From Catenulispora sp. EB89 (lineage in GTDB: Bacteria > Actinomycetota > Actinomycetes > Streptomycetales > Catenulisporaceae): a stretch of 64,000 bases of DNA. Both the position numbers and the translations under genes were made by a program. The notes below the pieces were generated by a model, which saw only the letters and a program-made list of their open reading frames with translations, did not search any database and was not told the DNA's origin. Positions 18,207-35,437 of the stretch are shown piece after piece (positions within the stretch are counted from its first letter, which is position 1; each line of letters begins with the position of its first letter). The stretch lies in NCBI RefSeq assembly GCF_041261445.1, contig NZ_JBGCCU010000005.1:310001-374000 (forward strand), in the 5' to 3' direction.

Positions 18207-19667
18207 TCAGCGCGGTCGATCGGGGCTCGGCTTGGCCAGTTTCGCCAGCATCTGCCGTACTTTCGGGTCCCGGTTCTTCTCGGCGGCCTTGTAGAGCTTG
18301 TCCAGGCGGTCCGGGAGGTCGGCGTAGTCGGCGGGCTGGGTTGGTTCGGCGGGCCGCGTGGGCTCGGCCGGCCAAGGGTTCTTCGCCTTCTGCGATGAGC
18401 TGACGCAGCGGATCGGCACCTCGGGCAGCTTGTACTGTCGTGTGAAGCGCTCGACCACGTCGGCGATCCGGGTCGGCGCGCCGAGGTCGGGGGTGGAGAC
18501 CTCGCCGCCGGTGGCTGTGCGAGCGGCTTCCAGTGCCAGGGCGACGGCTTCCTCGACGGTGGCGAAACGGCGCGTCGCGTCCGGGTGGGTGATGGTGACC
18601 GGGCCGCCGGCGCGGATCTGGTCGGCCAGGACGGTCAGGAGCGAGGCGTGGGCGTCGAGGGCGTCGCCGACGCGTACGGCGGTGTAGACGGTGTTCGTGT
18701 GCTTCTTCGCGCTCTTGGCCGCGGCGGCGCGGATGACGGCCTCAGCCGCTCGCTGAGAGGCGCCGAGCATCGTTGCCGGATCGGCGTCGGTGGAGATCCG
18801 TACGAAGCGCTCTGTGCCGTGCCTGGCGACCGCGCGGACGAGGTTGTCGGTGCTCAGGACGTTCGCCTTCACGCCGAGGCTCGGGCGGCGCTCCAGGACC
18901 GACGCCTGCCTTGGGCCGGCGGCGTGGAAGACCACCTCGGGGCGTAGGTCGCGGAAGGTGCGGTCGGTCTGGTCGCGGTCGGAGAGGTCCGTGGTCAGCA
19001 GGGTGGCGTACAGGTCGGGAGCGAGGTGGTGCATGGCGGATTCGTCGCCGTCGAGGAGGAACAGCTCGCCGGGGTTGAAGGCGTGCAGATGGCGGCTGAG
19101 TTCGGCGCCGAGGGCGCCGCCGGCGCCGGTGACCAGGACCCGTTTGCCGGTGACGATCTCCTTGACCTCGGGGGAGACCGCGTGCGGTGCCGGGCCGTCG
19201 ATCAGCGCTCTGATGTCCAGGGGGCGCAGGTCGGAGGCCGTCGCTTCGCGGGGCAGGTGGGCGGCGTGCCACGGCAGGTAGCGGACGACGGCTCCCGCGC
19301 CGGTCGCCGCGGCGGTCAGTTCGCGGGCCCGCGCGGTGGGCAGGCCGGGGATCGCGAGCAGTACGGCTTCGGCCGCGTGCTCGGCTACGAGGTGTGCCAG
19401 TTCCGCGAGCGTGCCGAGGAGAGGCATGGCGGGTTCGGGCTGGGCTTCGCTATTGGCGAAGGGGTCGCGGGCGTCGTCGACGAAGCCGATCGGGCGGAGT
19501 TCCTGGCCCTCGGTGCCGTGTGGGCCCGCTGCGTCGCGCAGCTCCCGAGCCAGCGCCCGGCCGGCCCGTCCTGCGCCGACGACCAGCGTGCGCAGCGTGG
19601 CGGGTGGCCGGATCCACGAGGCGGGTCCTGGGGACCCGTCCCATGGTGATTCGGCCTGTCCGGTCAT
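18207..19667 (-). CDS. CapD/FlaA1-like SDR protein lacking the catalytic lysines
   Basis: A 486-residue protein with two Rossmann parts. The first (about 28-170) begins LRTLVVGAGRAGRALARELR. The second begins near 172 with VLVTGAGGALGAELSRHL and resembles the cytoplasmic domain of CapD/FlaA1 UDP-GlcNAc dehydratase-epimerases. There are no membrane segments, unlike CapD/WbpM. In FlaA1-type enzymes the active site is STDKAVNP...MGATKR; here it reads STDADPATMLGASQR, so both lysines are replaced (Ala and Gln) and two residues are deleted. NAD binding looks intact, catalysis doubtful. It lies just downstream of a LuxR-type response regulator, so a regulatory or sensing role is possible. Confidence 0.75.
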   Translation of the reverse strand: MTGQAESPWDGSPGPASWIRPPATLRTLVVGAGRAGRALARELRDAAGPHGTEGQELRPIGFVDDARDPFANSEAQPEPAMPLLGTLAELAHLVAEHAAEAVLLAIPGLPTARARELTAAATGAGAVVRYLPWHAAHLPREATASDLRPLDIRALIDGPAPHAVSPEVKEIVTGKRVLVTGAGGALGAELSRHLHAFNPGELFLLDGDESAMHHLAPDLYATLLTTDLSDRDQTDRTFRDLRPEVVFHAAGPRQASVLERRPSLGVKANVLSTDNLVRAVARHGTERFVRISTDADPATMLGASQRAAEAVIRAAAAKSAKKHTNTVYTAVRVGDALDAHASLLTVLADQIRAGGPVTITHPDATRRFATVEEAVALALEAARTATGGEVSTPDLGAPTRIADVVERFTRQYKLPEVPIRCVSSSQKAKNPWPAEPTRPAEPTQPADYADLPDRLDKLYKAAEKNRDPKVRQMLAKLAKPSPDRPR

Positions 19668-19692: not shown

Positions 19693-20415
19693 TCAGCGGG
19701 GGTCTTCCCCGATTCCGGCGCGTCGGGCCACCGCCACGGCGGCCAGCGTGGAGTGTACGCCGAGCTTGCCCAGGACGTTCTGCATATGCGTGCGGACCGT
19801 GTTGGGCGACAGGAACAGGTGCTGGGCGATCGAGGCGCGGGTCATGCCCGAGACCATGCACTGCAGGACCTCGCGCTCGCGCGGGGTGAGCGCGCCGACC
19901 AGGGTCTCGTGCTCGTTGCGCTCCTGCTCGGCGGCCATCAGGTCGCTCAGGACGTAGGTCAGCAGGCGGGGCGGGATGTGCGTCTCGTCGCGCAGGACGC
20001 CGCGGACCACCTGGAGCAGGTGCTCCACGGAGCCGTCCTTGGCGACCCAGGCGTTCACGCCGCCGCGGACCGCCTCGGCGACCCGCTTCTCCTCCTCGCC
20101 GGCGGTGACCATGACGATGCGCACGTCGGCATGGCTGGCCCGGATCTCGGCGGCGAAGCGGATGCCGTCGCGGCCGTCGAGGTCCACGTCGAGCAGGACG
20201 ACGTCCGGCCGGCGCTCGTCGATCAGGCGGCGGGCGCCGTCGATGGTGGTGGTGGCGGCCACCCCGAAGCCGGGCTCGGCGCGCAGGCGCGAGGCCAGGG
20301 CTTCGGCGAAGGTGCGGTGGTCGTCGACGACAAGGATTCGGACCTCCCCGAGGCCCGTGACGTCGAGGCGCTCCTCGAGGCGGTCCTCGAGTCCGATCGT
20401 GGAGGCGTCAAGCAT
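19693..20415 (-). CDS. NarL/LuxR-type response regulator
   Basis: A 240-residue regulator. The receiver domain is complete: VDDH near 30, phospho-acceptor Asp in VVLLDVDLDGRDGI, Thr in VMVTAG, Lys in AWVAKDG. The C-terminal LuxR HTH is LTPREREVLQCMVSGMTRASIAQHLFLSPNTVRTHMQNVLGKLGVHS. It is transcribed in the same direction as a second LuxR regulator and a histidine kinase. A 116-bp gap separates it from the neighbouring regulator, so it may have its own promoter. Confidence 0.9.
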   Translation of the reverse strand: MLDASTIGLEDRLEERLDVTGLGEVRILVVDDHRTFAEALASRLRAEPGFGVAATTTIDGARRLIDERRPDVVLLDVDLDGRDGIRFAAEIRASHADVRIVMVTAGEEEKRVAEAVRGGVNAWVAKDGSVEHLLQVVRGVLRDETHIPPRLLTYVLSDLMAAEQERNEHETLVGALTPREREVLQCMVSGMTRASIAQHLFLSPNTVRTHMQNVLGKLGVHSTLAAVAVARRAGIGEDPR

Positions 20416-20531
20416 GCTCCCCATCCTTGCAAGCCGGTGGCGCGGCGCCCACCACCATGGTGTGGAGCCGCCGGTACTCCAAATGACGTAGACGCTGGTC
20501 TAGACAGGCCCGGCCGGACCAGACCCGGCGG

Positions 20532-21278
20532 TCACTGCGTCGCGCCGAGCCGGTCCACCGCGCCCACCCGGGCGACGATCGCCGAGGCCTCGACGCGGGA
20601 GTGTGCACCCAGCTTGACCAGCACGTTCTGCACGTGCGTGCGGGCCGTGGACTGCGCGATGTCCATGGCGCGAGCGATCTGCTTGGTCGACTCGCCCTCG
20701 ACAATGCGGCGTAGTACCTCGCGCTCGCGCGGCGTCAGGTAACGGAGAGTGCGCTCGGCCTGGTCGACGTCCGGGGCCTTGAGATGCCGGACCGCCGCGC
20801 GCAACAGCTCGGGATCCACCGCCACCTCGCCGCCGGCGACCCGCTCCAGGATCTGCACGATGCCGTCGATCCGCTGGTCCTTGCGGGTGAAACCGGACAC
20901 GCCGAGGTCCAGCGCGGCACTGACGATCGCCGGATCGTCGGTCGCCGAGACCATCAACACCTTGGTGCGAGGATGCCGCTCCAGCACCGCCCGCGCCAGC
21001 TCCAGGCCCGCGGTGACCATCCGGCTGTTCGGCCGCGACACCGGGAACGCCTGCTCGCCGGCGGTCGCCAGCGGCGAGGCGGCGGCGCGCGCCGAGACGG
21101 TCATCGGGAAGTGCACGTCCAGCATCAGGATGTCCGGGTCCAGGGACGCCACGGCGGCCAGCCCCTGCGCCGGGCTCGAGGTCACGGCCTCGACCTGGTA
21201 GCCCTTGGCGGCCAGCGAGGCGGCGAGGGACTCGGTGAGCAGGGTGTGGTCGTCGCAGAGCACGATCCTGGTGGGCAT
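20532..21278 (-). CDS. LuxR-type response regulator with an insertion in its receiver
   Basis: A 248-residue protein: receiver, then LuxR HTH (LTPREREVLRRIVEGESTKQIARAMDIAQSTARTHVQNVLVKLGAHS). Acidic residues CDDH and the acceptor Asp in DILMLDVHFP are present, but about 30 extra residues (Ala/Ser/Pro-rich, VSARAAASP...RPNSRMVT) sit between the acceptor loop and the usual GLEL helix. The start overlaps the stop of the upstream histidine kinase by one base (TGATG), so the two are co-translated and probably cognate. Confidence 0.88.
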   Translation of the reverse strand: MPTRIVLCDDHTLLTESLAASLAAKGYQVEAVTSSPAQGLAAVASLDPDILMLDVHFPMTVSARAAASPLATAGEQAFPVSRPNSRMVTAGLELARAVLERHPRTKVLMVSATDDPAIVSAALDLGVSGFTRKDQRIDGIVQILERVAGGEVAVDPELLRAAVRHLKAPDVDQAERTLRYLTPREREVLRRIVEGESTKQIARAMDIAQSTARTHVQNVLVKLGAHSRVEASAIVARVGAVDRLGATQ

Positions 21279-23401
21279 CAGAAAGCGCCTCCTGGGAGCA
21301 GGGAGAGCTGGACCGAGGCGACCGGCTGCAGCGCCGAGGCGGGGATGCGCGGGGGGTGGGTCAGGTTCGCCTGGGACGGGAGCTGGATCGAGGCGAGGGC
21401 GGTGTCGTCCTGACCGGTGGGGATGATGTGGAGGGGTTGGGTGTCGGAGGGGTCGAAGGTGGGGGTGGGGGGCGGGGGAGTCTGGGTCGGTGCCGGGAGC
21501 TGCGGGGCGGCGAACGCCGGTGCGGCGGCTTCGGCCTGGGCCTGCGGTGTGCCGGAGTGCGCCGGGCCGGTGGCGGCGAAGACATCTGCGGCGGTCGGTG
21601 CGGCGGCGGGGAGCTGCGGGGCCAGAGGCTGCGGTGCGGCGGGTGAGGCAGGCGCGGTGGGGACGGCCGTGCGCGCCGGCTGCGAGGCGGCGGCCTCGGC
21701 GGGCGCCTGCGGGCGGGCGTTCCGGCGCTCCGCGAGCAGGCCGGTCGGGACCGGATGCGCGGCGATGTCCGAAGGCGCGTCGTAGACGCGGCGCTGAGGC
21801 TGAGGCGCGGGGTCGTTCTTCAGCGGCAGACCGAAGTAGCCGCTCTCCGCGGGGTCCGAAGACTGGTTCTTCTGCGCGGAGACGCCGAAGAAGCCGCGGT
21901 CGGTCGCCGGCCGGTTTTGCTGTGCCGGCAGTCCGAAGTAGCTCCGGTTCGCAGGAGCCTCCGACGCCACGGCAGGCGTCGCGGCGATCGCGTCCTGCTC
22001 CACCGCCCGGGCGCCGAACAGGTTTCCCCGGTCTGCGGGCCCGCCGATCGCCAGCTGCTCCGGCGTGCCGGAGATGGCCATCGGCTCCGGCCAGGCGCTG
22101 GTCCGCGTCACGAATGCGTGGCCGCCGGTCAGCGTGTGGCCTGCCGCTGCGACGGTGTGACCCGAGGTCGGGAGTGCGTGCCCGGCGGCGATGTCGTCCA
22201 CGTCCTCGAAGTCGTCCTCGGCGAGGTCTTCGAAGTCATCAATGTCGTCAATGTCGTCGAGGTCGTCGAAGTCCGCCAGCGCCCGGTGCACGTTGCCCGC
22301 CGCGAGCTCCGCGGCCAGCTGGCTCAGCGAGATCTCGCCGTGGAAGGTCTTGGTCAGTTCGTCGTCGGCGCTCAGCGGGCGGATCGGGGTGACCGGGAGG
22401 ACCAGGCGGACCAGGGCGCCGCCGAGCGGTCCCTCGGCGAACTCCACCGAGCCGCCGGCGGCCTCTATCGTGCGGCGGACGACCGCCAGGCCCAGGCCGT
22501 GGCCGGCCGGTATGTTGCCGAAGCCGGGGCCGCTGTCGTCGACCTCGATCACCGCGCGTTCGCCCTCGGCGGTCTCGAAGCGGCGGACGGTCACCTGGAC
22601 GCGGCCGGAGTCGCCGGCGGCGCGGGTGCCGTTGGACAGGACGTTGCCGAGTGCCCGTTTGAACAGCACCGGGTCCACCGTCACGTGCAGCGGGTCCTCG
22701 GCCGCCGCCAGGGCCAGGTCGCCGTCGAAGGTGGCCCGCCAGCGCTCCACGGACTCCGCGGCCAGGCCGGCCACGTTGCACGGCACCGGCTCGCCGAGGC
22801 CGTCCACGCCCTGCTTGGCGTCGTCCAGGAACTGGCGGACCGTCGCGGATATCTCCTCGGTCTGGGACATGATCTCCTGCAGCACGTCCCGGACCCGCTC
22901 GGGGACGTCCGGCCGCAGTTCGGCGGCGGAGGCCAGCATCAGGATCGCGGCGACCGGCTGGCGCAGGTCGTGGCAGACCTCGCGGACCCGGTCCAGGGGG
23001 ATCGCGGTGCCGCCGTCGGCGTACAGGACCGCGTCGCGGCGGTGCGAGCCGTGGTAGCGCTCGAGCTCCGCCCCAGTGGCTCCGGTGGTTCCGGTCGTCC
23101 CGGCCTCGATCGCTCCGATCGCTCCGGCGGCTCCGGGAGCGCCAAGCACTCCGAGCGCTCCGAGCGCCGTGGGCGATCCGGCCGCGGAGGGATCAGCAGA
23201 GGGATCAACGGAGAGACCGGCAGCAGCAGCCCGCGCGGCCCGCGCCGCCTTGTCCGCCGCCTCCTGGGCCCGCAGCTCGCGCAGGTCGAGCAGCACGGTC
23301 TCGTCCGTGCCGCGGATGTACGGGTCCTTCGACCCGCCGGCGCCGCCCGCCGGTCCGCTCATGTCGGCGCCGGGCGTGGTGGTGTCCGTGGTCGTGCTCA
23401 T
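21278..23401 (-). CDS. Soluble sensor histidine kinase with long repetitive C-terminal tail
   Basis: A 707-residue protein without membrane segments. Residues about 130-350 form the kinase core: H-box REVCHDLRQPVAAIL, N-box NVLSNGTRAA, G1 VDDSGPGFG, G2 GHGLGLAVVRR. The remaining 350 residues are disordered: an Asp-rich run of DDI/DDF units, four GH[TA] units (AGHALPTSGHTVAAAGHT) and four aromatic FG repeats (NLFGARAVEQD, SYFGLPAQQN, GFFGVSAQKN, GYFGLPLKND), then Pro/Ala-rich sequence. ATG 23401 was chosen for its GGGGGA ribosome site. It is translationally coupled to the following regulator. Confidence 0.85.
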   Translation of the reverse strand: MSTTTDTTTPGADMSGPAGGAGGSKDPYIRGTDETVLLDLRELRAQEAADKAARAARAAAAGLSVDPSADPSAAGSPTALGALGVLGAPGAAGAIGAIEAGTTGTTGATGAELERYHGSHRRDAVLYADGGTAIPLDRVREVCHDLRQPVAAILMLASAAELRPDVPERVRDVLQEIMSQTEEISATVRQFLDDAKQGVDGLGEPVPCNVAGLAAESVERWRATFDGDLALAAAEDPLHVTVDPVLFKRALGNVLSNGTRAAGDSGRVQVTVRRFETAEGERAVIEVDDSGPGFGNIPAGHGLGLAVVRRTIEAAGGSVEFAEGPLGGALVRLVLPVTPIRPLSADDELTKTFHGEISLSQLAAELAAGNVHRALADFDDLDDIDDIDDFEDLAEDDFEDVDDIAAGHALPTSGHTVAAAGHTLTGGHAFVTRTSAWPEPMAISGTPEQLAIGGPADRGNLFGARAVEQDAIAATPAVASEAPANRSYFGLPAQQNRPATDRGFFGVSAQKNQSSDPAESGYFGLPLKNDPAPQPQRRVYDAPSDIAAHPVPTGLLAERRNARPQAPAEAAASQPARTAVPTAPASPAAPQPLAPQLPAAAPTAADVFAATGPAHSGTPQAQAEAAAPAFAAPQLPAPTQTPPPPTPTFDPSDTQPLHIIPTGQDDTALASIQLPSQANLTHPPRIPASALQPVASVQLSLLPGGAF

Positions 23402-23722
23402 GATCGTCCCCCACCCCAGCGGTTCCGGGCACGGTCCGACGCGCGGCGGATCGGACATGCGGCCCCGGCGGGCCGTGCGTCCGCGTAGCCTGCCACGCGC
23501 CTCCCCCTTGCTCCGGCCGCCGGGCGAACCCCGCGGCCATCATCGACGTTACGCCGGCGGACCACGGGCGAGCAGGCGGGACGCGACGGATCACGCGATG
23601 GGAGCAACCGGCCGGCCGGCGGGCGTACGCCGTCCGCGGTCCTGCCCTCCCACCCCGAACCCGGCGGGCCCCCACGACCCACCCGACCGGTTCCCCCGGT
23701 CCGGCTCGAGGTCGATCCCCGT
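23402..23722. other. Intergenic region without recognised features
   Basis: 321 bp between the kinase start and the ABC-F stop. It is extremely GC-rich. It must hold the kinase promoter, but no convincing -35/-10 pair, tRNA, hairpin terminator or coding sequence was found. Confidence 0.4.
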
Positions 23723-25602: not shown

Positions 25603-25908
25603 CTACAGACCGAGGACCGCGCGCAGGGCCTCCTCGACCTTGCCCATGTCGGCTTCGTCGACGGAGCCGAGCCGTCGGGCGCCGGCGGCCGGGTCGAACC
25701 GGGAGGCGCGCATCTGGGCCAGGTTGAGGGCGAACGCGCTGGCCGGGACCGGCTGCTTGAGCTCGACCGACAGCACGGTGTCGGGGTACTGCCCGGCCGG
25801 GTGCAGGACGACGGCGACCGCGGCGCCCAAGGCGGCGGTCTCGTTGATGGACACCACCAGGACGCGGGGCCCGTCGCCGGCGGTATCCCAGACCTCGGCC
25901 CGCCTCAC
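25603..25908 (-). CDS. MazF/PemK-like toxin
   Basis: A 101-residue protein beginning MRRAEVWDTAGDGPRVLVVS, like the first strands of MazF/PemK RNases (R-G-E-V-W...). The middle is LHPAGQYPDTVLSVELKQ; the end is VDEADMGKVEEALRAVLGL, matching the terminal helix of the family. Its GTG start overlaps the antitoxin stop (GTGA). Expected to cleave mRNA at short sequence motifs. It is more diverged than the canonical family, hence moderate confidence in activity. Confidence 0.75.
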   Translation of the reverse strand: MRRAEVWDTAGDGPRVLVVSINETAALGAAVAVVLHPAGQYPDTVLSVELKQPVPASAFALNLAQMRASRFDPAAGARRLGSVDEADMGKVEEALRAVLGL

Positions 25909-26114
25909 CCGGCGTCCCCGAGGCCGTCGGGCATCAGGACGTCGTACTCGGACAGCGTCGCGATCGCCTCGGCGATCTCGTCGCGGCGCACCTGGGCCTC
26001 GGCGGCTCGGTTGATGTAGGCCGTGACGTTGCCGCCGGCGTTGCGCTCTATCCGCGAGGCGAGATCGATGGGGAACGTGACCGTGATCCGCTTGTACATC
26101 TCTTTCGCCGCCAT
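25905..26114 (-). CDS. Ribbon-helix-helix antitoxin
   Basis: A 69-residue protein: MYKRITVTFPIDLASRIERNAGGNVTAYINRAAEAQVRRDEIAEAI, a typical RHH (MetJ/Arc-type) N-terminus with a beta-strand followed by two helices, then an acidic C-terminus (LSEYDVLMPDGLGDAG). It precedes and is coupled to the MazF-like toxin. No ribosome site is seen before 26114, and a TATGCT box 8 bases upstream suggests a leaderless message. Confidence 0.78.
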   Translation of the reverse strand: MAAKEMYKRITVTFPIDLASRIERNAGGNVTAYINRAAEAQVRRDEIAEAIATLSEYDVLMPDGLGDAG

Positions 26115-26132
26115 GTTCAACAGCATAGAGCA

Positions 26133-26146
26133 CATCAGATTTGATG
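26133..26146 (-). promoter_or_regulatory. Candidate operator of the RHH/MazF module
   Basis: CATCAGATTTGATG, arms CATCA/TGATG with a 4-base spacer, 19 bp upstream of the antitoxin start and next to the TATGCT box. It suits RHH autoregulation (inferred). Confidence 0.55.
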
Positions 26147-26185
26147 CGTAGCCGCGCAGCAGAATCCGCGCATGACACAGCGCGT

Positions 26186-28600
26186 CTAGTTGCTTGAGGC
26201 GGCCTGCTCCAAGACCAGGTTCAGGAGCCGCCCCGCCCCCGCCTTGTCCAAGGGGTTGTTCCCGTTCCCGCACTTCGGCGACTGCACGCACGAAGGACAC
26301 CCCTCCGCGCACTCGCACGCCGCGATCACGTCCCGCGTCGCCGTCAGCCACGCCACCGCCGCCCCGTAGGCGCGCTCGGCGAAGCCCGCGCCGCCGGGGT
26401 GGCCGTCGTAGACGAACACCGTCAGGCGCTCGGTGTCGGGGTGCATCGGCATCGAGACGCCGCCGATGTCCCAGCGGTCGCAGGGGGTGAACAGGGGGAG
26501 CAGGCCGATGGAGGCGTGTTCGGCGGCGTGGGCGGCGCCGGCGCTCATGGCGGTGTCGAGCTCGGCGTCGCGGAGGGCCGCCGGGTGGACGGTCCACCAG
26601 ACCGCGCGGGTGCGCAGGATGCGTTCCGGGAGGTCCAGGGGCTTGGTCTCGATGATCTGGCCGGTGCCGGCCTTGCGTTTCAGGTAGGAGACCACCTGGG
26701 TGCTCACCTCGACCGAGCCGAAGTGCAGGGAGGCGTCGCCCCAGTCCTGGGTCTGCTCGGTCTCCAGGATGGCTACCTGGACCACGTCCCGGGCCATCGT
26801 GGTGTAGTCCGGGTTGGCGCGGTGGACCAGCGCTATGTTCTGCTCCAGGTCCAGCTTGTCCACCAGGTACGTGTGGCCCTGGTGCAGGTACACGGCGCCG
26901 TCGTGCACCGTCGAGTGGGACGCGCTCTCGTCCACGGTGCCGAGCAGGCGGCCGGTCTGGTCCTCGACGATGCGGACCGTCGGGCCGCCGGTGCCGCGCA
27001 GGTCGGTCAGGGCCGAGGGGCGCTCGCGCCGGGTCCAGTACCAGCCGGTGGGCCGGCGGCGCAGGTACTCGCGGCGAGTCAGGTCGGTCAGCAGGGCTTC
27101 GGTGGCGGGGCCGAAGAGCTCCAGGTCCGATTCCGTCAAGGGGAGTTCCGCGGCGGCCGCGCAGAGGTGCGGCGCCAGGACGTACGGATTGTCCGGGTCC
27201 AGGACGGCGGCCTCGACCGGGCGGTCGAAGATCGACTCGGAGTGGTGCACCAGGTAGGTGTCCAGCGGGTCGTCGCGCGCGATGAGGACCGCCAGCGCCC
27301 CCTGCCCGGCGCGTCCGGCGCGCCCTGCCTGTTGCCACAGAGAGGCGCGCGTACCGGGGAACCCTGCCATGAGCACGGCGTCGAGCCCTGCGACGTCCAC
27401 GCCGAGCTCCAGGGCCGTGGTGGCGGCCAGGCCGACGAGCGCGCCGTCCAGGGTCGGGTCCATATGCAGAGCGGCCTCTAGAGCGCGGCGTTCAGTCTTG
27501 AGATATCCGCCGCGATACGCCGCGATGCGCTTTCCATAGCCCCTGCGGCGCTCCTCCAGATAGTCGCGCGTCTGCATCGACACCTGTTCGGCACCGCGTC
27601 GGGACCGTGTGAAGACCACTGTGCGGACGTCGTCCAGGACCAAGTCCGTCAGCAGATCCGCGGCCTCCGCTGTAGCGGAGCGGCGCACGGGCGCTCCACG
27701 CTCCCCGATAAGGGTCGTCAGAGGGGGTTCCCAGAGGGCGAACACCAGCTGGCCGCGCGGAGAGGAATCGTCAGTGACCGCCGAGACTTCGACGCCGGTG
27801 AGCCGCGAGGCCGATACGGCGGGATCGGCGGTGGTGGCCGAAGCCAGTATGAAAGTCGGACTTGATCCGTAGCGCGCGCAGATACGGCGCAGTCGCCTTA
27901 GGACCGCCGCTACGTGTGAGCCGAAGACACCTTTATAGGTGTGGCATTCGTCGATGACCACATAGCGGAGCTTCCGCAGGAATGACGCCCAGCGTGCGTG
28001 TCCCGGCAGAAGTGAGTAATGCAGCATGTCCGGATTGCTCAGAACGTAGTTCGCATGCTGACGCACCCAGTCGCGCGCCTCAGCGTCCGTATCGCCGTCC
28101 AACAGCCCGGCGCGGACCCCCGGTACGTCCAAACGAGTGAGACGCCTGAGTTGGTCCGCGGCCAACGCCTTCGTCGGCGCCAGGTACAGGGTGGTGCCGG
28201 CGTTCTCGCGGATCGCGGTCAGCGCCGGCAGCTGGAAGCCCATGGACTTGCCGGAGGCGGTACCGGTGGCGAGCGTCACATGCCGTCCGTCCCGGGCCGC
28301 CTCGGCCGCCGCGACCTGGTGCCGCCAGGGCCGGGGCACGCCTCCGGCCTCGCGGAACCCGTGCACCACGGCTTCGTCGACCCACTCCGGCCACTCGGCG
28401 TGCTCCGCGTCCCGGGCCGGTACCACGCGCACATGCGTCACACGTTCAGCGCGCGACGCGGGAACCGAGATCAGTCTCTCCAGCGTTGGTTGGACAGAAC
28501 CGGACGCGGAACCTTCCGGGATACCGGCATCCGACCCGGGTGCCGGTGTGGACACACCACCCGTGTCGGGGTTTTGCTGGTAAGGAGGAGTCGGCGACAT
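26186..28600 (-). CDS. DEAD/DEAH-box helicase with DUF1998 (MrfA/Hrq1-like)
   Basis: An 804-residue superfamily 2 helicase. Walker A is ATGTASGKSMGFQLPAL (about 115), the DEAH-like box DECHTYKGVFGSHVAA (about 218) and motif VI region QQAGRAGRAGQG. The C-terminal part is DUF1998 with a four-Cys cluster (CECAEGCPSCVQSPKCGNG) that binds metal in this family. Homologues include B. subtilis MrfA and the Hrq1/SftH group, 3'-5' DNA helicases in repair of cross-links or bulky adducts. The first 50 residues are disordered. It appears monocistronic. Confidence 0.9.
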   Translation of the reverse strand: MSPTPPYQQNPDTGGVSTPAPGSDAGIPEGSASGSVQPTLERLISVPASRAERVTHVRVVPARDAEHAEWPEWVDEAVVHGFREAGGVPRPWRHQVAAAEAARDGRHVTLATGTASGKSMGFQLPALTAIRENAGTTLYLAPTKALAADQLRRLTRLDVPGVRAGLLDGDTDAEARDWVRQHANYVLSNPDMLHYSLLPGHARWASFLRKLRYVVIDECHTYKGVFGSHVAAVLRRLRRICARYGSSPTFILASATTADPAVSASRLTGVEVSAVTDDSSPRGQLVFALWEPPLTTLIGERGAPVRRSATAEAADLLTDLVLDDVRTVVFTRSRRGAEQVSMQTRDYLEERRRGYGKRIAAYRGGYLKTERRALEAALHMDPTLDGALVGLAATTALELGVDVAGLDAVLMAGFPGTRASLWQQAGRAGRAGQGALAVLIARDDPLDTYLVHHSESIFDRPVEAAVLDPDNPYVLAPHLCAAAAELPLTESDLELFGPATEALLTDLTRREYLRRRPTGWYWTRRERPSALTDLRGTGGPTVRIVEDQTGRLLGTVDESASHSTVHDGAVYLHQGHTYLVDKLDLEQNIALVHRANPDYTTMARDVVQVAILETEQTQDWGDASLHFGSVEVSTQVVSYLKRKAGTGQIIETKPLDLPERILRTRAVWWTVHPAALRDAELDTAMSAGAAHAAEHASIGLLPLFTPCDRWDIGGVSMPMHPDTERLTVFVYDGHPGGAGFAERAYGAAVAWLTATRDVIAACECAEGCPSCVQSPKCGNGNNPLDKAGAGRLLNLVLEQAASSN

Positions 28601-28896
28601 CGCAGTCCAGTATCCGACAGTACGGCCGACTCCATGCCCGAATCCCGACGCGAAATCCGAGCGACCATCCGAAACGACATGAACTTCCGACGGCGCGGAG
28701 CACTCGCCTCCCCGCTAACGGGGCCAGTACGGCGCACCATTAGAGGGCACTTGACGCGAATCGTGGCCGAGTGTCACCCCGAGGTGATTGACTGTGCTCA
28801 AGCCCTGACCCGGGTGAAGCTGTACTTTGTGTTGCCGAGGACACACCTTTTCTCACCCCCGCCACGGCGGGAAGGCACCGATTTTGGAGGCCGGCA
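28601..28896. other. Divergent promoter region between the helicase gene and bldG
   Basis: 296 bp. It holds CCCGCC-AC-GGCGGG at about 28859-28872, shortly before the bldG ribosome site. No coding sequence recognised. In S. coelicolor bldG has multiple promoters; none could be fixed here. Confidence 0.4.
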
Positions 28897-29238
28897 GTGG
28901 ACCTGAAGCTGGAGACGCGAGACGAGAACGGCCGGACGATCGTCAAGGTCGGCGGGGAGATCGACGTGTACACCGCCCCGAAGCTGCGCGAACAGCTGGT
29001 CGAGCTCGTCGGTGCCGGGAAGTACCACCTGATCGTGGACATGGAGGACGTCGACTTCCTCGACTCCACCGGGCTGGGCGTCCTGGTCGGCGGGCTGAAG
29101 CGGGTGCGGGCGCACGACGGCTCGCTGCGCCTGGTCTGCACCCAGGAGCGGATCCTGAAGATCTTCCGGATCACCGGTCTGACCAAGGTGTTCCCGATCA
29201 GCGACAGCGTGGAGCAGGCCGTCACCGCCGTCGACTAG
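28897..29238 (+). CDS. bldG: Anti-sigma factor antagonist BldG
   Basis: A 113-residue STAS-domain protein, the same length as BldG of Streptomyces. The phospho-acceptor Ser is in [18 protein letters not shown] (Ser57). The GTG start follows GGAGG by 7 bases. BldG is needed for aerial growth and antibiotic production and acts by binding anti-sigma factors when unphosphorylated. The next gene encodes its usual ATPase partner. Confidence 0.93.
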
Positions 29239-29337
29239 CGGACACCGGCGGGCCGCGGCGCGGGAGACAACCACGCCGGCCAGGCCCGCCAACCCCGGCC
29301 ATCACATCCCGCACTTGTTCCTAAGGGGTCTGCCAAC

Positions 29338-29889
29338 ATGGATGCGCAATCGTCGGCCGTCGGCACGGTGGCCAAGACGGAGAGCGCCACGGCCGTTCTG
29401 CTGCGGTTCACCCCGCAGCCCGAGCATGTCCGGACCGCGCGCCTGGTCGCGGTCGCCCACGCCCGCCGGGTCGGCGTGGAGGCCGGCCTGCTCGACGAGG
29501 TCCGCCTCGCCGTCGGCGAGGCCTGTTCCCGGGCCGTGGGCCTGCACCAGCGGCACTGCCCGGGCGAACCGGTCGTGGTGGTGCTGGACGCGGTGGACGA
29601 GTCCGACTCCGGCCTGGTCGCCGACCGGTTCGTGGTGACGGTGGCCGACAAGGTCTCCGGCGCGGTGCCGGGCCAGCGCGACGGGGCCGCGGCCGCCGCC
29701 GACGAGGAGGCCGCCGCCGAGGCGGCCGGAACCGAGGCGACCGCCGCCGCGCAGGACGACGACGAGGAAGACCTCGACGACGCCGAGATGGGCCTGGCCG
29801 TCCTGACCGGGCTGGTCGACGACCTCGACATCACTTCCGGGCCCGACGGGGGCTCGGTCCGCATGGGATGGCCCGTCAAGGACTTCTGA
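29338..29889 (+). CDS. ATP-binding anti-sigma-like partner of BldG
   Basis: A 183-residue RsbW-like protein, the counterpart of the gene cotranscribed with bldG in Streptomyces (SCO3548 type). The ATPase N-box reads LLDEVRLAVGEACSRAVGLH, with Ala/Cys/Ser where RsbW has Asn. An acidic low-complexity insert (AAAADEEAAAEAAG, DDDEEDLDDAE) splits the fold, and the C-terminus (MGLAVLTGLVDDLDI) holds the G2-like region. It lies 99 bp after bldG with no terminator between them. Confidence 0.87.
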   Translation: MDAQSSAVGTVAKTESATAVLLRFTPQPEHVRTARLVAVAHARRVGVEAGLLDEVRLAVGEACSRAVGLHQRHCPGEPVVVVLDAVDESDSGLVADRFVVTVADKVSGAVPGQRDGAAAAADEEAAAEAAGTEATAAAQDDDEEDLDDAEMGLAVLTGLVDDLDITSGPDGGSVRMGWPVKDF

Positions 29890-29953
29890 GCACTTATATG
29901 AACACCGGTTCGAGCCGCCGGCACAGGCTCAAGTAGGCTCGCAGTAGTCATCG

Positions 29954-29987
29954 CGGCGGAGCGCCACCATCCCTGGGCGCTCCGCCG
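29954..29987 (+). terminator. Terminator of the bldG operon
   Basis: A perfect 12-bp inverted repeat, CGGCGGAGCGCC at 29954-29965 and its complement at 29976-29987, with a 10-base loop and ATTT after the stem, 64 bp past the ATPase stop. Confidence 0.8.
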
Positions 29988-30071
29988 ATTTCGTGGGCAT
30001 CGCCCCACTTCATGCGACGCTTGCATTCACCAAACCGAGTGAAAAGTGTCCTTCATCACATAGCGATCCGT

Positions 30072-30122
30072 GAGGTCGGCGAAACGATCTGTTGACCGAC
30101 CTCGGGTTTTCGCGCGTAGACT
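30072..30122 (+). promoter_or_regulatory. hppA promoter with overlapping inverted repeat
   Basis: TTGACC at 30092-30097 and TAGACT at 30117-30122 (19-bp spacer) form a possible promoter about 65 bp before hppA. GAGGTCGG (30072-30079) and CCGACCTC (30096-30103) are a perfect 8-bp inverted repeat whose right arm overlaps the -35 box, as an operator would. Confidence 0.45.
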
Positions 30123-30186
30123 CCCCTGCCATTGGCTGTGATCTGAGTTACAGCGACGGAATACGGATCGTCACAGTGGAGGACGC

Positions 30187-32625
<2,439 letters not shown>

Positions 32626-32657
32626 GCGGTCCTCCTTGGGAGTTCTCTCCTATTAAT

Positions 32658-32692
32658 GGGGCGCCCTCGGCCTTCGGGTCGGGGGCGCCCCA
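32658..32692 (+). terminator. Terminator of hppA (copy 1 of a 33-bp repeat)
   Basis: The stem GGGGCGCCC (32658-32666) pairs with GGGCGCCCC (32683-32691), with an inner stem closed by a C-TTCG-G tetraloop, ending in CATTT. Bases 32660-32692 recur exactly at 33592-33624. Confidence 0.85.
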
Positions 32693-32693
32693 T

Positions 32694-32742
32694 TTGAGTG
32701 ATTTCCGTAGCTTGGTGCTAGACCTTTGAAGTATCTTTGAAG
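32694..32742 (+). promoter_or_regulatory. Promoter and direct-repeat operator of the toxin-antitoxin pair
   Basis: TTGAGT (32694) and TAGACC (32719) are a possible -35/-10. CTTTGAAG occurs twice, at 32724-32731 and 32735-32742, exactly 11 bp apart (one helical turn) and ending 2 bp before the start codon. This suggests a cooperative operator. Confidence 0.5.
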
Positions 32743-32744
32743 CC

Positions 32745-33239
32745 ATGGGAACTGTGAGTGACTCCGTGCCGTTCTCCGAGCTGATTCAGCATCCCCGCGA
32801 GACGACCTTGCGGCTGGATCAAGCTGAGACGCTGCGCTTGGTGCGCCGGAACCAGCCGGATCTGATGTTGGCGACCGTTGAACGTGCCGAGCGGGACGCC
32901 GAGGTCTACGACGTCACGACGCGCCTGTTGGTGGGGATAATCGCGCAGGAGCCCTCGCGCGAGGTGCTTCGCAGCTCGCTGAGAGGCGTGTTCGCGTGGA
33001 CGCGGTTCCTCCCGGACGACGGGGTCGACGAGTTTCTGACCGAGTTGGTCGATGTGGCCAGAGCCTCTGCCGAGCTCCGCAACCTGCGACCGGTCTCTCA
33101 GGTGATCATTGAATGGCAGCACACGGCGGAGATCTACGCGGACCCGGAGCTGTACGGGAGGCTGACCATGGAGCATTCGGCGGAGGATGACTTCGGGCCG
33201 GTGGAAGTGCCTGTGGTGCCGGAAGAGGACGATGAATGA
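32745..33239 (+). CDS. Probable antitoxin of a type II pair
   Basis: A 164-residue acidic protein. The N-terminal 45 residues (VPFSELIQHPRETTLRLDQAETLRLVRRNQPDLMLATVERA) resemble Phd-like antitoxin DNA-binding domains in actinobacteria. The middle is helical, and the C-terminus is strongly acidic (EHSAEDDFGPVEVPVVPEEDDE), fitting a toxin-neutralising tail. It overlaps the next gene by ATGA. Assignment rests on this layout and similarity recognised by eye, not on a search. Confidence 0.65.
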   Translation: MGTVSDSVPFSELIQHPRETTLRLDQAETLRLVRRNQPDLMLATVERAERDAEVYDVTTRLLVGIIAQEPSREVLRSSLRGVFAWTRFLPDDGVDEFLTELVDVARASAELRNLRPVSQVIIEWQHTAEIYADPELYGRLTMEHSAEDDFGPVEVPVVPEEDDE

Positions 33240-33589
33240 GTCCGAAGCGTGGCGACGACGTCGCGCCTCCGCCAGTCGATGACGAGTGGCGGATCCGCTA
33301 CGCGGAAACGGACACCATCAAAGGCTGGCGCGAACTGTGCAGCAAGGCTCCGCAGAATACGCGGAAAGCGTATGAGGCCTTCCGCTCGAATCCCAGGCCT
33401 ACAGAGCCGACAAAGCGGCACCACCAGCTGAGACTCGAGCTGGCGTTCGTGATCAGCGACGGTGCGCGCATGGAGCACTGGCAGTACGAGGTCACCGGTG
33501 GCGGTCGGATCTGGTACTACATCGATGTCGCGAACCGGACGGTCTGGCTGGACTACGCCGGCCTCGGCCACCCGAAAGCGACCGACTGA
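33236..33589 (+). CDS. Probable RelE-fold toxin of a type II pair
   Basis: A 117-residue basic protein coupled to the gene before it. The centre (GWRELCSKAPQNTRKAYEAFRSNP) and the beta-rich end (HWQYEVTGGGRIWYYIDVANRTVWLDYAG) match the helix-then-sheet plan of RelE-like translational repressors, with G-R-I-W-Y-Y as the core strand. Its stop is only 2 bp before the second copy of the 33-bp terminator. Toxicity is inferred. Confidence 0.62.
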   Translation: MSPKRGDDVAPPPVDDEWRIRYAETDTIKGWRELCSKAPQNTRKAYEAFRSNPRPTEPTKRHHQLRLELAFVISDGARMEHWQYEVTGGGRIWYYIDVANRTVWLDYAGLGHPKATD

Positions 33590-33591
33590 TC

Positions 33592-33624
33592 GGCGCCCTC
33601 GGCCTTCGGGTCGGGGGCGCCCCA
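33592..33624 (+). terminator. Terminator of the toxin gene (copy 2 of the 33-bp repeat)
   Basis: All 33 bases are identical to 32660-32692, including the TTCG loop. The copies bracket the toxin-antitoxin pair and are 932 bp apart in the same orientation. Confidence 0.85.
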
Positions 33625-33646
33625 CGTTTCCCGCGACAATGGACCC

Positions 33647-35137
33647 ATGGAGAACCTGCGCGAAGCCCTGATCAAGGCCGACTACACCGTCGACGGCGTT
33701 CTGGAGGTCCTCGGTCCGCTGGCGTACGCGGCGCTGGCCAGGAGCGAGAGTGTGCCGGCGTTGCGGGCGACGGCCGGGGGTTCGCCGGTTGAGACGCTGG
33801 TCCGGCTCTTCCTCTTGCAGCAGCCGGTGGATCGGAAGGCTGTCGGGGCCGCGTTGCCGGTTGAGGAGGCGGTGGCGGCCGGGCTGGTCGCGGTCGACGG
33901 GGAGCGGGTGCGGGCCGCCATCGACATCCGGCCCTATGGCGATGACGACGGCCATGACTGGTACCTGGTCTCCGACCTGTCCGGCGGGCTGCACGCGCAG
34001 GGGCAGGGGCATCCGGTGCGTGAGGACCACGTGCTCGGCGTCGGGGGTGCCTCCACGACGCTCGCTCAGCTCACCATCCGGGACCGGTTCGGGTCGGCGC
34101 TGGACGTCGGGACCGGCGGGGGTGTGCAGGCGCTGCACCTGTCGACGCACGTCGAGCGGGTCGTCGGTAGCGACCGGAATCCGCGGGCGCTCAAGTTGGC
34201 GCGGATGACGCAGGAGCTCTCCGGGGTGGTGCCGTTCGAGCTTCGTGAGGGTTCCCTGTTTGAGCCAGTTGAGGGAGAGCGGTTCGATCTGATCGTCTCC
34301 AACCCGCCGTTCGTCATCTCGCCGGACAACGCCGCGCAGGGCGGCCGCTTCGTCTACCGCGACTCCGGGCTGCCGGCCGACGAGGTGTGCCGGCAGCTGG
34401 TCGCCAACGCGCACCGGCACCTGGCCGAGGACGGGTGGTGCCAGGTGCTGGCCAACTGGCTGCACGTGGACGGCGTGGACTGGCGCGAGCGGGTGGCCGG
34501 GTGGGTGCGGGACACCGGCTGTGACGCGTGGGTGGTGCAGCGTGAGGCGCAGGACCCGGCCGAGTACGTCGAGCTCTGGCTGCGCGACTCCGGTGAGTAC
34601 GGCACTCCGGAGTACCCGCAGCGCTACGACGCCTGGCTGGACTACTTCGAGCAGAACAAGGTCAACGCCATCGGCTTCGGGTGGATCACCCTGCACAACG
34701 CCGGCGCCGACAGCCCCCTGATGCGGCTGGAGGAGATCTCGCACCCGGTGGAGCAGCCGCTCGGGCCGCACATCCCCAGCTGGTTCGCGCGGCACGACTT
34801 CCTGCGCGGCACCGACGACGAGGCTCTGATGCACCGCAAGTTGGCGGTTGCGCCGGACGTGCGCTGGGAGCAGGTGGCGCGGCCGACGTACGAGGGCGGC
34901 AGCGGTTGGGGCGGCGACTCCTCGCGGCTCAGCCAGCAGGAGGGCTTCATGCGCTCGGCCGACATCGACCCGGTCGGGGCCGCTGTGGTGGGTGCGTCGG
35001 ATGGTGAGACGCCGCTCGGGGAAATCCTGGACGCTGTCGGCGAACGCTACGGGATCGACGGCCGGAGCCTGCGGACCGGGGCGGTCGAGGCCATCCGGGG
35101 GCTGGTCGAAGACGGTTATCTGTTCCCCGTGGCCTAG
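33647..35137 (+). CDS. Class I SAM-dependent methyltransferase (NPPF type)
   Basis: A 496-residue protein. The N-terminal 130 residues form a helical domain seen in actinobacterial homologues (DUF7059-like). The central Rossmann methyltransferase has motif I ALDVGTGGGVQALHL (near 150) and motif IV FDLIVSNPPFVISPDN (near 215). The NPPF motif indicates methylation of a nucleic-acid base amine or protein glutamine amide, as in RlmG or PrmC/HemK; the substrate is not known. The C-terminal 180 residues are an extension ending with VRGLVEDGYLFPV-type sequence. The start is 23 bp past the terminator. Confidence 0.85.
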   Translation: MENLREALIKADYTVDGVLEVLGPLAYAALARSESVPALRATAGGSPVETLVRLFLLQQPVDRKAVGAALPVEEAVAAGLVAVDGERVRAAIDIRPYGDDDGHDWYLVSDLSGGLHAQGQGHPVREDHVLGVGGASTTLAQLTIRDRFGSALDVGTGGGVQALHLSTHVERVVGSDRNPRALKLARMTQELSGVVPFELREGSLFEPVEGERFDLIVSNPPFVISPDNAAQGGRFVYRDSGLPADEVCRQLVANAHRHLAEDGWCQVLANWLHVDGVDWRERVAGWVRDTGCDAWVVQREAQDPAEYVELWLRDSGEYGTPEYPQRYDAWLDYFEQNKVNAIGFGWITLHNAGADSPLMRLEEISHPVEQPLGPHIPSWFARHDFLRGTDDEALMHRKLAVAPDVRWEQVARPTYEGGSGWGGDSSRLSQQEGFMRSADIDPVGAAVVGASDGETPLGEILDAVGERYGIDGRSLRTGAVEAIRGLVEDGYLFPVA

Positions 35138-35437
35138 GCGACACTCAGGGCTGTCATCAGCGTCGATCCCCTCAACACCGGTTGTCGTGCGTCACATCCG
35201 TCCCACCTCTGGCGTTTTCGGGTTCCGTCCTATACGCCAGTTCGGGTTAACGTTCGGTTGTACGCCGACCATTCAAGACAACGAGTAGGACACAGTAGAC
35301 AGCGCGGAGACGTACGGCTGAGGTACGGTCACTCTCCGTTGGTGTCGCGGTATCCCGACGACGTGTCACACCGCGGTGTGCGGGGTACGCCCAAGCGCGT
35401 ATCCCTTGGGGCTAGAAGCTGGGAAGCAGAGGTAACG
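35138..35437. other. topA leader region with a 14-bp palindrome
   Basis: 300 bp without a credible gene. CACACCGCGGTGTG at 35367-35380 is a perfect palindrome, 57 bp before the topA start. No terminator is evident for the methyltransferase gene. Confidence 0.6.

Follow-up and report, generated by a model that had tools for sequence, protein, structure and literature searches.

A kinase gene with a long C-terminal tail

The 64,000-nucleotide stretch of Catenulispora sp. EB89 DNA analysed here (positions 310,001 to 374,000 of contig NZ_JBGCCU010000005.1; hereafter the window) carries a three-gene operon of the two-component type on its minus strand. The first gene (21278..23401), defined by open reading frame (ORF) translation, Pfam and alignment, encodes a histidine kinase with a C-terminal tail. 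It reads from an ATG at 23401 to a stop codon at 21280-21278, and as a further in-frame ATG lies upstream at 23458 the product has 707 or 726 amino acids depending on the start. Two response regulator genes follow on the same strand, RR1 (20532..21278; Pfam, alignment) and RR2 (19693..20424; Pfam), each encoding a receiver and a LuxR-type helix-turn-helix domain, in the order kinase-RR1-RR2. The tail of the kinase begins at about residue 345 and makes up the last 365 or so of the 707 residues, exceeding the catalytic part in length.

The catalytic core (residues 119-345; 22367..23047, minus strand), identified by Pfam and alignment, comprises HisKA (H-box CHDLRQP) and HATPase_c. Both exceed their Pfam cut-offs, HisKA at residues 140-196 (34.2 bits against 26.9) and HATPase_c at residues 243-338 (50.4 bits against 26.4), and the motifs CHDLRQP, NVLSNGTRAAG, DDSGPGFG and GHGLGL are invariant in seven aligned Catenulispora kinases, the window's included, the H, N and G boxes all being intact. 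Towards the N-terminus, alignment and ratios of nonsynonymous to synonymous change (pN/pS) mark a conserved island, SKDPYIRGTDETVLLDLRELRAQEAAD (residues 24-50; 23252..23332, minus strand), which is followed by a variable Ala/Gly linker. Neither Pfam nor NCBIfam reports a sensor domain for this kinase. The highest hydropathy peak (19-residue Kyte-Doolittle mean) reaches 1.65 at residues 80-98, just over the customary membrane-segment line of 1.6; because these residues form an Ala/Gly-rich linker that is absent or replaced in the aligned congeners, we take the kinase to be soluble, in agreement with the initial annotation, which had described a soluble histidine kinase. A gene on the plus strand was also considered, as long antisense ORFs are present there (for example 21755-23488), but the codon-position GC filter picks out the ORF on the minus strand instead, and the domains and the conservation back the minus strand as well.

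Conserved islands and variable repeats in the tail

Following the core, the tail contains, all on the minus strand, an acidic run (residues 380-405; 22187..22264), four GH units (residues 407-428; 22118..22183), a conserved island, GGHAFVTRTSAWPEPMAISGTPEQLAIGG (residues 426-455; 22037..22126), four FG units reading LFG, YFG, FFG and YFG (residues 461-529; 21815..22021), a Pro/Ala-rich spacer of variable length (residues 557-645; 21467..21733) and a C-terminal island ending in VQLSLLPGGAF (residues 651-707; 21281..21451). The acidic run and the GH units were assessed by alignment and shuffling, the first island by alignment, pN/pS and searches, the FG units by shuffling, the spacer by alignment and pN/pS, and the C-terminal island by its occurrence across the genus. 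The GH dipeptides lie at residues 407, 414, 421 and 427 (window 22183, 22162, 22141 and 22123) and the FG dipeptides at residues 462, 489, 505 and 523 (window 22018, 21937, 21889 and 21835). Compared with 10,000 shuffles of the tail, there are four FG where 0.90 are expected (P 0.0075), three aromatic FG against 0.04 (P printed as 0.0000), four GH against 0.64 (P 0.0016) and eight overlapping DD against 2.24 (P 0.0005), while a triple D/E pattern shows no significant excess (2 against 0.57, P 0.12). The FG, GH and Asp-rich elements that the initial annotation had reported are thus present above expectation, although of its four aromatic FG units the first is LFG and only the other three are aromatic. 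The FG-nucleoporin repeat region of Pfam (PF13634) scores 22.1 bits, under its cut-off of 32.2; we reject membership of that family and regard the likeness as compositional. From its composition and length variation we infer that the tail is probably disordered.

We compared ten Catenulispora genomes, the window's own and nine congeners. The mid-tail is readable in eight of these, namely the window's own and, with the corresponding loci, G002 (L002), G003 (L028), G004 (L025), G006 (L029), G007 (L027), G008 (L001) and G009 (L026); in G001 and G005 the contig stops shortly upstream of RR1, leaving the mid-tail unreadable. The nearest named matches are in C. pinisilvae and C. pinistramenti, for which the C-terminus was taken from separate contigs (L003 and L004) that are assigned to the same gene though not joined to it. 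On this comparison the most constrained parts of the tail appear to be the SAWPEPMAISGTPEQLAIGG island and the C-terminal 57 residues, neither of which was named in the initial annotation. The island running from GGHAF to SAWPEPMAISGTPEQLAIGG is recognisable in all eight readable genomes, and the C-terminal island is found in all ten, although G001 has just 32 residues of it and G006 carries it in a shifted frame; the final eleven residues, VQLSLLPGGAF, are identical throughout. Between five complete genes the tail varies from 255 to 573 residues with the islands retained. The acidic run keeps its position but not its sequence.

The reading frame is open in all genomes as far as they can be read, except in G006, an assembly that is 77% complete, where the kinase is frameshifted around the acidic run and the start of the tail (L029, contig G006:C200) and the tail continues in another frame to RR1. 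Four Catenulispora assemblies break within the kinase tail (L001/L003, L002/L004, L062 and L063), and automatic annotation therefore likely misses the full gene there. The longest tail, of 573 residues (L025:6376-9060), appears by eye to have been expanded through repeated units containing NFFGAPVAPQAATQ, with additional NFFGAP/NFFAAP units within the repeats.

To compare constraint between segments we use Nei-Gojobori proportions, setting the window against L025, L026, L027 and L028 (pN/pS values in that order) and adding two further pairs, L025-L028 and L026-L027 (in that order). The catalytic core gives 0.00, 0.11, 0.08 and 0.29. Residues 651-695 give 0.16, 0.23, 0.38 and 0.34, with 0.33 and 0.08 in the further pairs, and residues 426-455 give 0.17, 0.57, 0.30 and 0.42, with 0.37 and 0.11. 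Values for the acidic run are 0.61, 0.43, 0.36 and 0.90, and those for the Pro/Ala spacer 0.67, 0.58, 0.73 and 0.62, with 0.91 and 0.41. The C-terminal segments of L001 were left out, since its contig ends within the tail and produces an alignment artefact. We see in these values signs of purifying selection on the C-terminal and 426-455 islands, with the qualification that, the segments being short and the counts small, the ratios rank the parts and do not prove selection.

The 3' end of the kinase gene has a second role that bears on its conservation. The kinase stop overlaps the RR1 start as TGATG, and a Shine-Dalgarno-like AGGAGG for RR1 is evident from the sequence within the last kinase codons (21288..21293, minus strand). 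TGATG and GGAGG are retained in the six congener ends compared, as AGGAGG in five and TGGAGG in L025. The overlap together with a Shine-Dalgarno site inside the kinase gene suggests translational coupling of kinase and RR1. The tail might be low-complexity sequence drifting for the most part neutrally in a genome of high GC, with a C-terminus conserved mainly through the RR1 ribosome-binding site and the coupling signal. This would fit the position of both signals in the last kinase codons, the freely varying Pro/Ala and acidic parts, the assemblies that break in the tail as they would at simple repeats, and the frameshift in G006. We nonetheless think it unlikely, as the conserved C-terminal stretch of about 57 residues reaches well past the extent of a Shine-Dalgarno site, the 426-455 island that is recognisable in every readable genome lies about 750 bases from RR1, and the frame stays open outside G006. 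Moreover, synonymous changes occur across residues 651-695, where the window comparisons give pN/pS of 0.16-0.38, so the ribosome-binding site does not explain the C-terminal island, although it may account for the last five or six codons.

The FG and GH units are less uniform. At least one [YF]FG unit is found in six of the eight readable genomes, in one to five copies (five in L025, three in the window, two each in L027, L001 and L002 and one in L026), and none is seen in L028 or L029, though both retain other parts of the tail. The outcome that would have refuted the initial annotation, repeat motifs kept by no homologue, is thus not what is seen for FG, although G003 and G006 lack the motif. 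Against 5,000 shuffles of each tail, [YF]FG is in excess at P<0.01 in five of seven tails (window, L025, L027, L001 and L002); for L026 P is 0.068, and the L028 tail has none. The set of four GH units proves to be peculiar to the species. Its last member (GGHAF, or SGHAL) is common to all eight readable genomes, the third is shared with L027 (GGHSL), and five of the six congener tails tested show no excess of GH over shuffles (P 0.15-0.44; L028, P 0.03). With one unit of four held in common, we reject the GH repeats as a functional unit.

These distributions bear on the suggestion that the tail is an assembly or condensate-forming segment of the sticker-and-spacer type, in which aromatic-FG and FxxP stickers, Pro/Ala spacers and an acidic tuner would cluster the kinase and so set its kinase/phosphatase balance, in the way that scaffolds act on DivJ and PleC of Caulobacter. 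Such scaffolds, forming condensates that act on histidine kinases, are known (PMC11326607), and both the [YF]FG excess in five tails and the extra NFFGAP/NFFAAP units read by eye in L025 would be expected of stickers. However, two genomes lack FG units and keep other tail parts, L026 has a single copy, three of the four GH units are not generally conserved and the strongest constraint falls elsewhere in the tail. On balance we consider a condensate role improbable.

The C-terminal island contains a further short motif, QLSLL, which starts ten residues from the kinase C-terminus and is identical in all ten genomes. It fits the revised clamp-binding consensus Q-phi-x-[L/M][F/L] and departs from QL[S/D]LF in its last residue only (PMC13254535), and the clamp-binding motif has been described as C-terminal (PMC9690074). 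Within the 31 window proteins (13,268 residues) it is the sole occurrence of QL[SD]L[FL], where 0.04 are expected in shuffles, and the probability in a shuffled tail is 0.002. Conceivably, the kinase could dock through QLSLL onto the DNA sliding clamp, reading active replication forks in hyphae and relaying this to RR1 and RR2. We rate this as very unlikely: the motif was chosen after it had been seen in the sequence, looser forms of the consensus are at or below chance in the window proteins (2 against 2.35 and 0 against 2.38), and to our knowledge no histidine kinase binds the sliding clamp. If true, it would give a histidine kinase with the replisome as its input and tie two-component signalling directly to replication.

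Distribution of the tail and of tail-less relatives

The searches found the tail within a single genus. At E 1e-25 the kinase query matches 8 of 60 relatives, all of them Catenulispora and including the window's own genome, that is, seven of the nine congeners; at E 1e-22 it matches 4 of 394 genomes of the class, the window's own and three weak matches that are tail-less. With residues 426-554 as query the kinase is found in eight of the ten Catenulispora genomes, and in the two that are missed the sequence ends at a contig edge; two of five other genomes of the order give weak matches only (E 0.008 and 0.08). The C-terminal island query finds 1 of the 394 class genomes, the window's own, the congeners not being seen among the genomes listed for that sample. 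In the searches made the tail is thus found only in Catenulispora. We looked for the tail islands on other proteins and rejected the idea, as outside the kinase there are just weak matches (E 0.006 with internal stops, 0.008 and 0.08). Plasmid homologues were likewise dismissed: among the matches listed there is likeness to the kinase core alone, and none of 455 matching records covers 80% of the query.

The rest of the operon is more widespread. A five-row RR1 model searched at E 1e-48 or better matches 49 of the 394 class genomes, the window's own, 35 others of its order and 13 from outside it. Loci were examined for 12 of these 13 (L081-L092; G116 was left out), calling a kinase beside RR1 by a family model at E 1e-8. 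A related kinase lies directly upstream of RR1 in seven, representing six families (L081, L082, L083, L087, L088, L091 and L092), and none was detected in L084, which contains a masked stretch, or in L085, L086, L089 and L090. RR2 comes next in four of the seven, and one locus ends at the contig edge. The seven kinases extend 17, 2, 3, 15, 20, 19 and 12 residues past the matched domain, whereas the window's kinase has 365 more, which bears out, for this kinase family, the view of the initial annotation that such a tail is unusual. Identity to other-family proteins is 35-38% for the kinase core (L064-L066) and 40-48% for RR1 (L064, L065 and L073). Because these seven loci have a kinase that lacks the tail before RR1, we regard kinase-RR1-RR2 as an actinomycete module to which the tail appears to be an addition, and the shared gene order supports a true cognate set. 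RR1 is itself distinct in its own genome, where it has 85 matches at E 0.001 of which the best after itself is at 3e-21.

RR1 also carries an addition of its own, 29 extra residues (34 in L028) directly past the strand bearing the phospho-Asp of the receiver. The insertion is present in the same-genus loci L030, L031, L033, L037 and L038 and lacking in the three RR1s of other families that were aligned (L064, L065 and L073). Since tail and insertion are both restricted to one genus in what was examined, the tail could act in cis, tethering RR1 or RR2 or inhibiting the kinase, and have co-evolved with the insertion. However, co-occurrence within one lineage amounts to a single event and so shows no correlation, and we hold action in cis to be quite unlikely.

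An RR1 homologue also occurs in relatives of the order that we take to be Streptomyces. It is 44-49% identical across about 150 residues at the C-terminus and has Gly at the phospho-Asp position in L059, L060 and L061. No kinase is seen beside it in the ORF lists of these three loci, and none was matched in scans of L093-L095. In L059 and L060, though not in the third of these loci, an ABC-F gene similar to that of the window lies within a few genes of the homologue, and in L059-L061 nearby genes look by eye like galT, galE and galK. Judging by gene order, the homologue presumably corresponds to S. coelicolor SCO3134, and it is possibly an orphan that lost its kinase. SCO3134 is listed as an orphan NarL-type response regulator in PMC9739842.

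Around the operon, RR2 is followed by a Polysacc_synt_2 family gene (18207-19667). Upstream of the kinase are genes for an ABC-F-like protein, an MrfA/HRQ1-like helicase, a 113-residue STAS protein, a HATPase_c_2 protein, a proton pyrophosphatase and topA. The helicase, STAS, anti-sigma-like ATPase, H+-pyrophosphatase and topA genes cluster at 26186-38248, which we take to resemble the bldG region of Streptomyces, 113 residues being the size of BldG. Between the helicase and ABC-F genes, a short frame at 25603-26178 and one overlapping it read by eye as a ribbon-helix-helix antitoxin with a small partner, and possibly form a toxin-antitoxin pair.

A proposed docking role and comparison with known systems

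The catalytic core and the short islands stay constant while the spacer changes freely in length, a pattern typical of docking motifs on a disordered linker. Given that no sensor domain was found, our preferred reading, held with slightly better than even confidence, is that a partner bound by the tail positions the kinase or gates its activity. In this model the soluble HisKA-type kinase would phosphorylate the LuxR/NarL-type regulators encoded downstream, RR1 and probably RR2. The Catenulispora lineage would have gained an arm at the C-terminus, about 255-573 residues long and made of a disordered linker with short linear motifs. As such motifs we count the island at the C-terminus, the one with SAWPEPMAISGTPEQLAIGG and, for the greater part of the genus, the [YF]FGLP units. 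Through them the kinase would dock at a partner or site in the cytoplasm, and docking would replace a classical sensor domain by setting where or when the kinase works.

Several observations weigh against this proposal. The pN/pS of the FG units ranges from 0.26 to 1.59 over the four window comparisons and is 0.77 and 2.28 for L026-L027, although FG-segment ratios with L026 or L028 are unreliable as they compare a lost or displaced copy. The spacer value of 0.41 for L026-L027 is not above that of some islands, and the 426-455 island reaches 0.57 with L026 and 0.50 with L001. Short segments from few species give noisy ratios, and misaligned linkers can raise pN. The RR1 ribosome-binding site accounts for part of the C-terminal conservation. 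AlphaFold yields no confident structure, whether for the whole protein or for the C-terminal island: the full-length model has a mean pLDDT of 40 with no residue above 70, in the kinase core as elsewhere, and is uninformative. Its weak strands at 658-662, 669-674 and 696-701, at pLDDT near 50, are no better than the kinase core there. The C-terminal island was also modelled alone (9 rows) as a candidate folded domain and discarded, with pLDDT 56 and no fold. Neither model demonstrates disorder.

How soluble kinases that lack sensor domains are controlled is a general open question. The open-access literature searched has no description of a disordered FG-bearing tail on a bacterial histidine kinase, nothing on soluble histidine kinases paired with two response regulators in Actinobacteria and, on C-terminal tails, only the phage shock protein system; among the open-access papers listed for Catenulispora and histidine kinases, none, going by titles and the openings of abstracts, evidently concerns this kinase.

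The kinase and the operon are of known kinds and the tail is, in our reading, a genus-level variation upon them. Its nearest matches among sequences of solved structure are EnvZ transmitter constructs (E 1.2e-9), and like EnvZ-type HisKA kinases the window's protein has HisKA and HATPase_c with intact H, N and G boxes. It differs from them in having neither a detected sensor domain nor a convincing membrane segment, in its long C-terminal tail, and in being paired with LuxR/NarL-type and not OmpR-type regulators. The orphan NarL-type regulator of the presumed Streptomyces relatives is an RR1 homologue with no kinase seen beside it and, in the three loci read, Gly in place of the phospho-Asp. 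In the Caulobacter SpmX-DivJ and PodJ-PleC condensates, too, disordered segments could position a histidine kinase, but there the disordered segment is on a separate scaffold (PMC11326607), whereas here the tail is fused to the kinase itself. A further comparison is with the tail-less kinase-RR1(-RR2) modules of other families, which have the same gene order, kinases ending 2-20 residues past the domain and, in the three RR1s aligned, no receiver insertion. As the same operon occurs with and without the tail in related bacteria, the effect of a presumably disordered arm on two-component signalling can be tested by adding or removing it.

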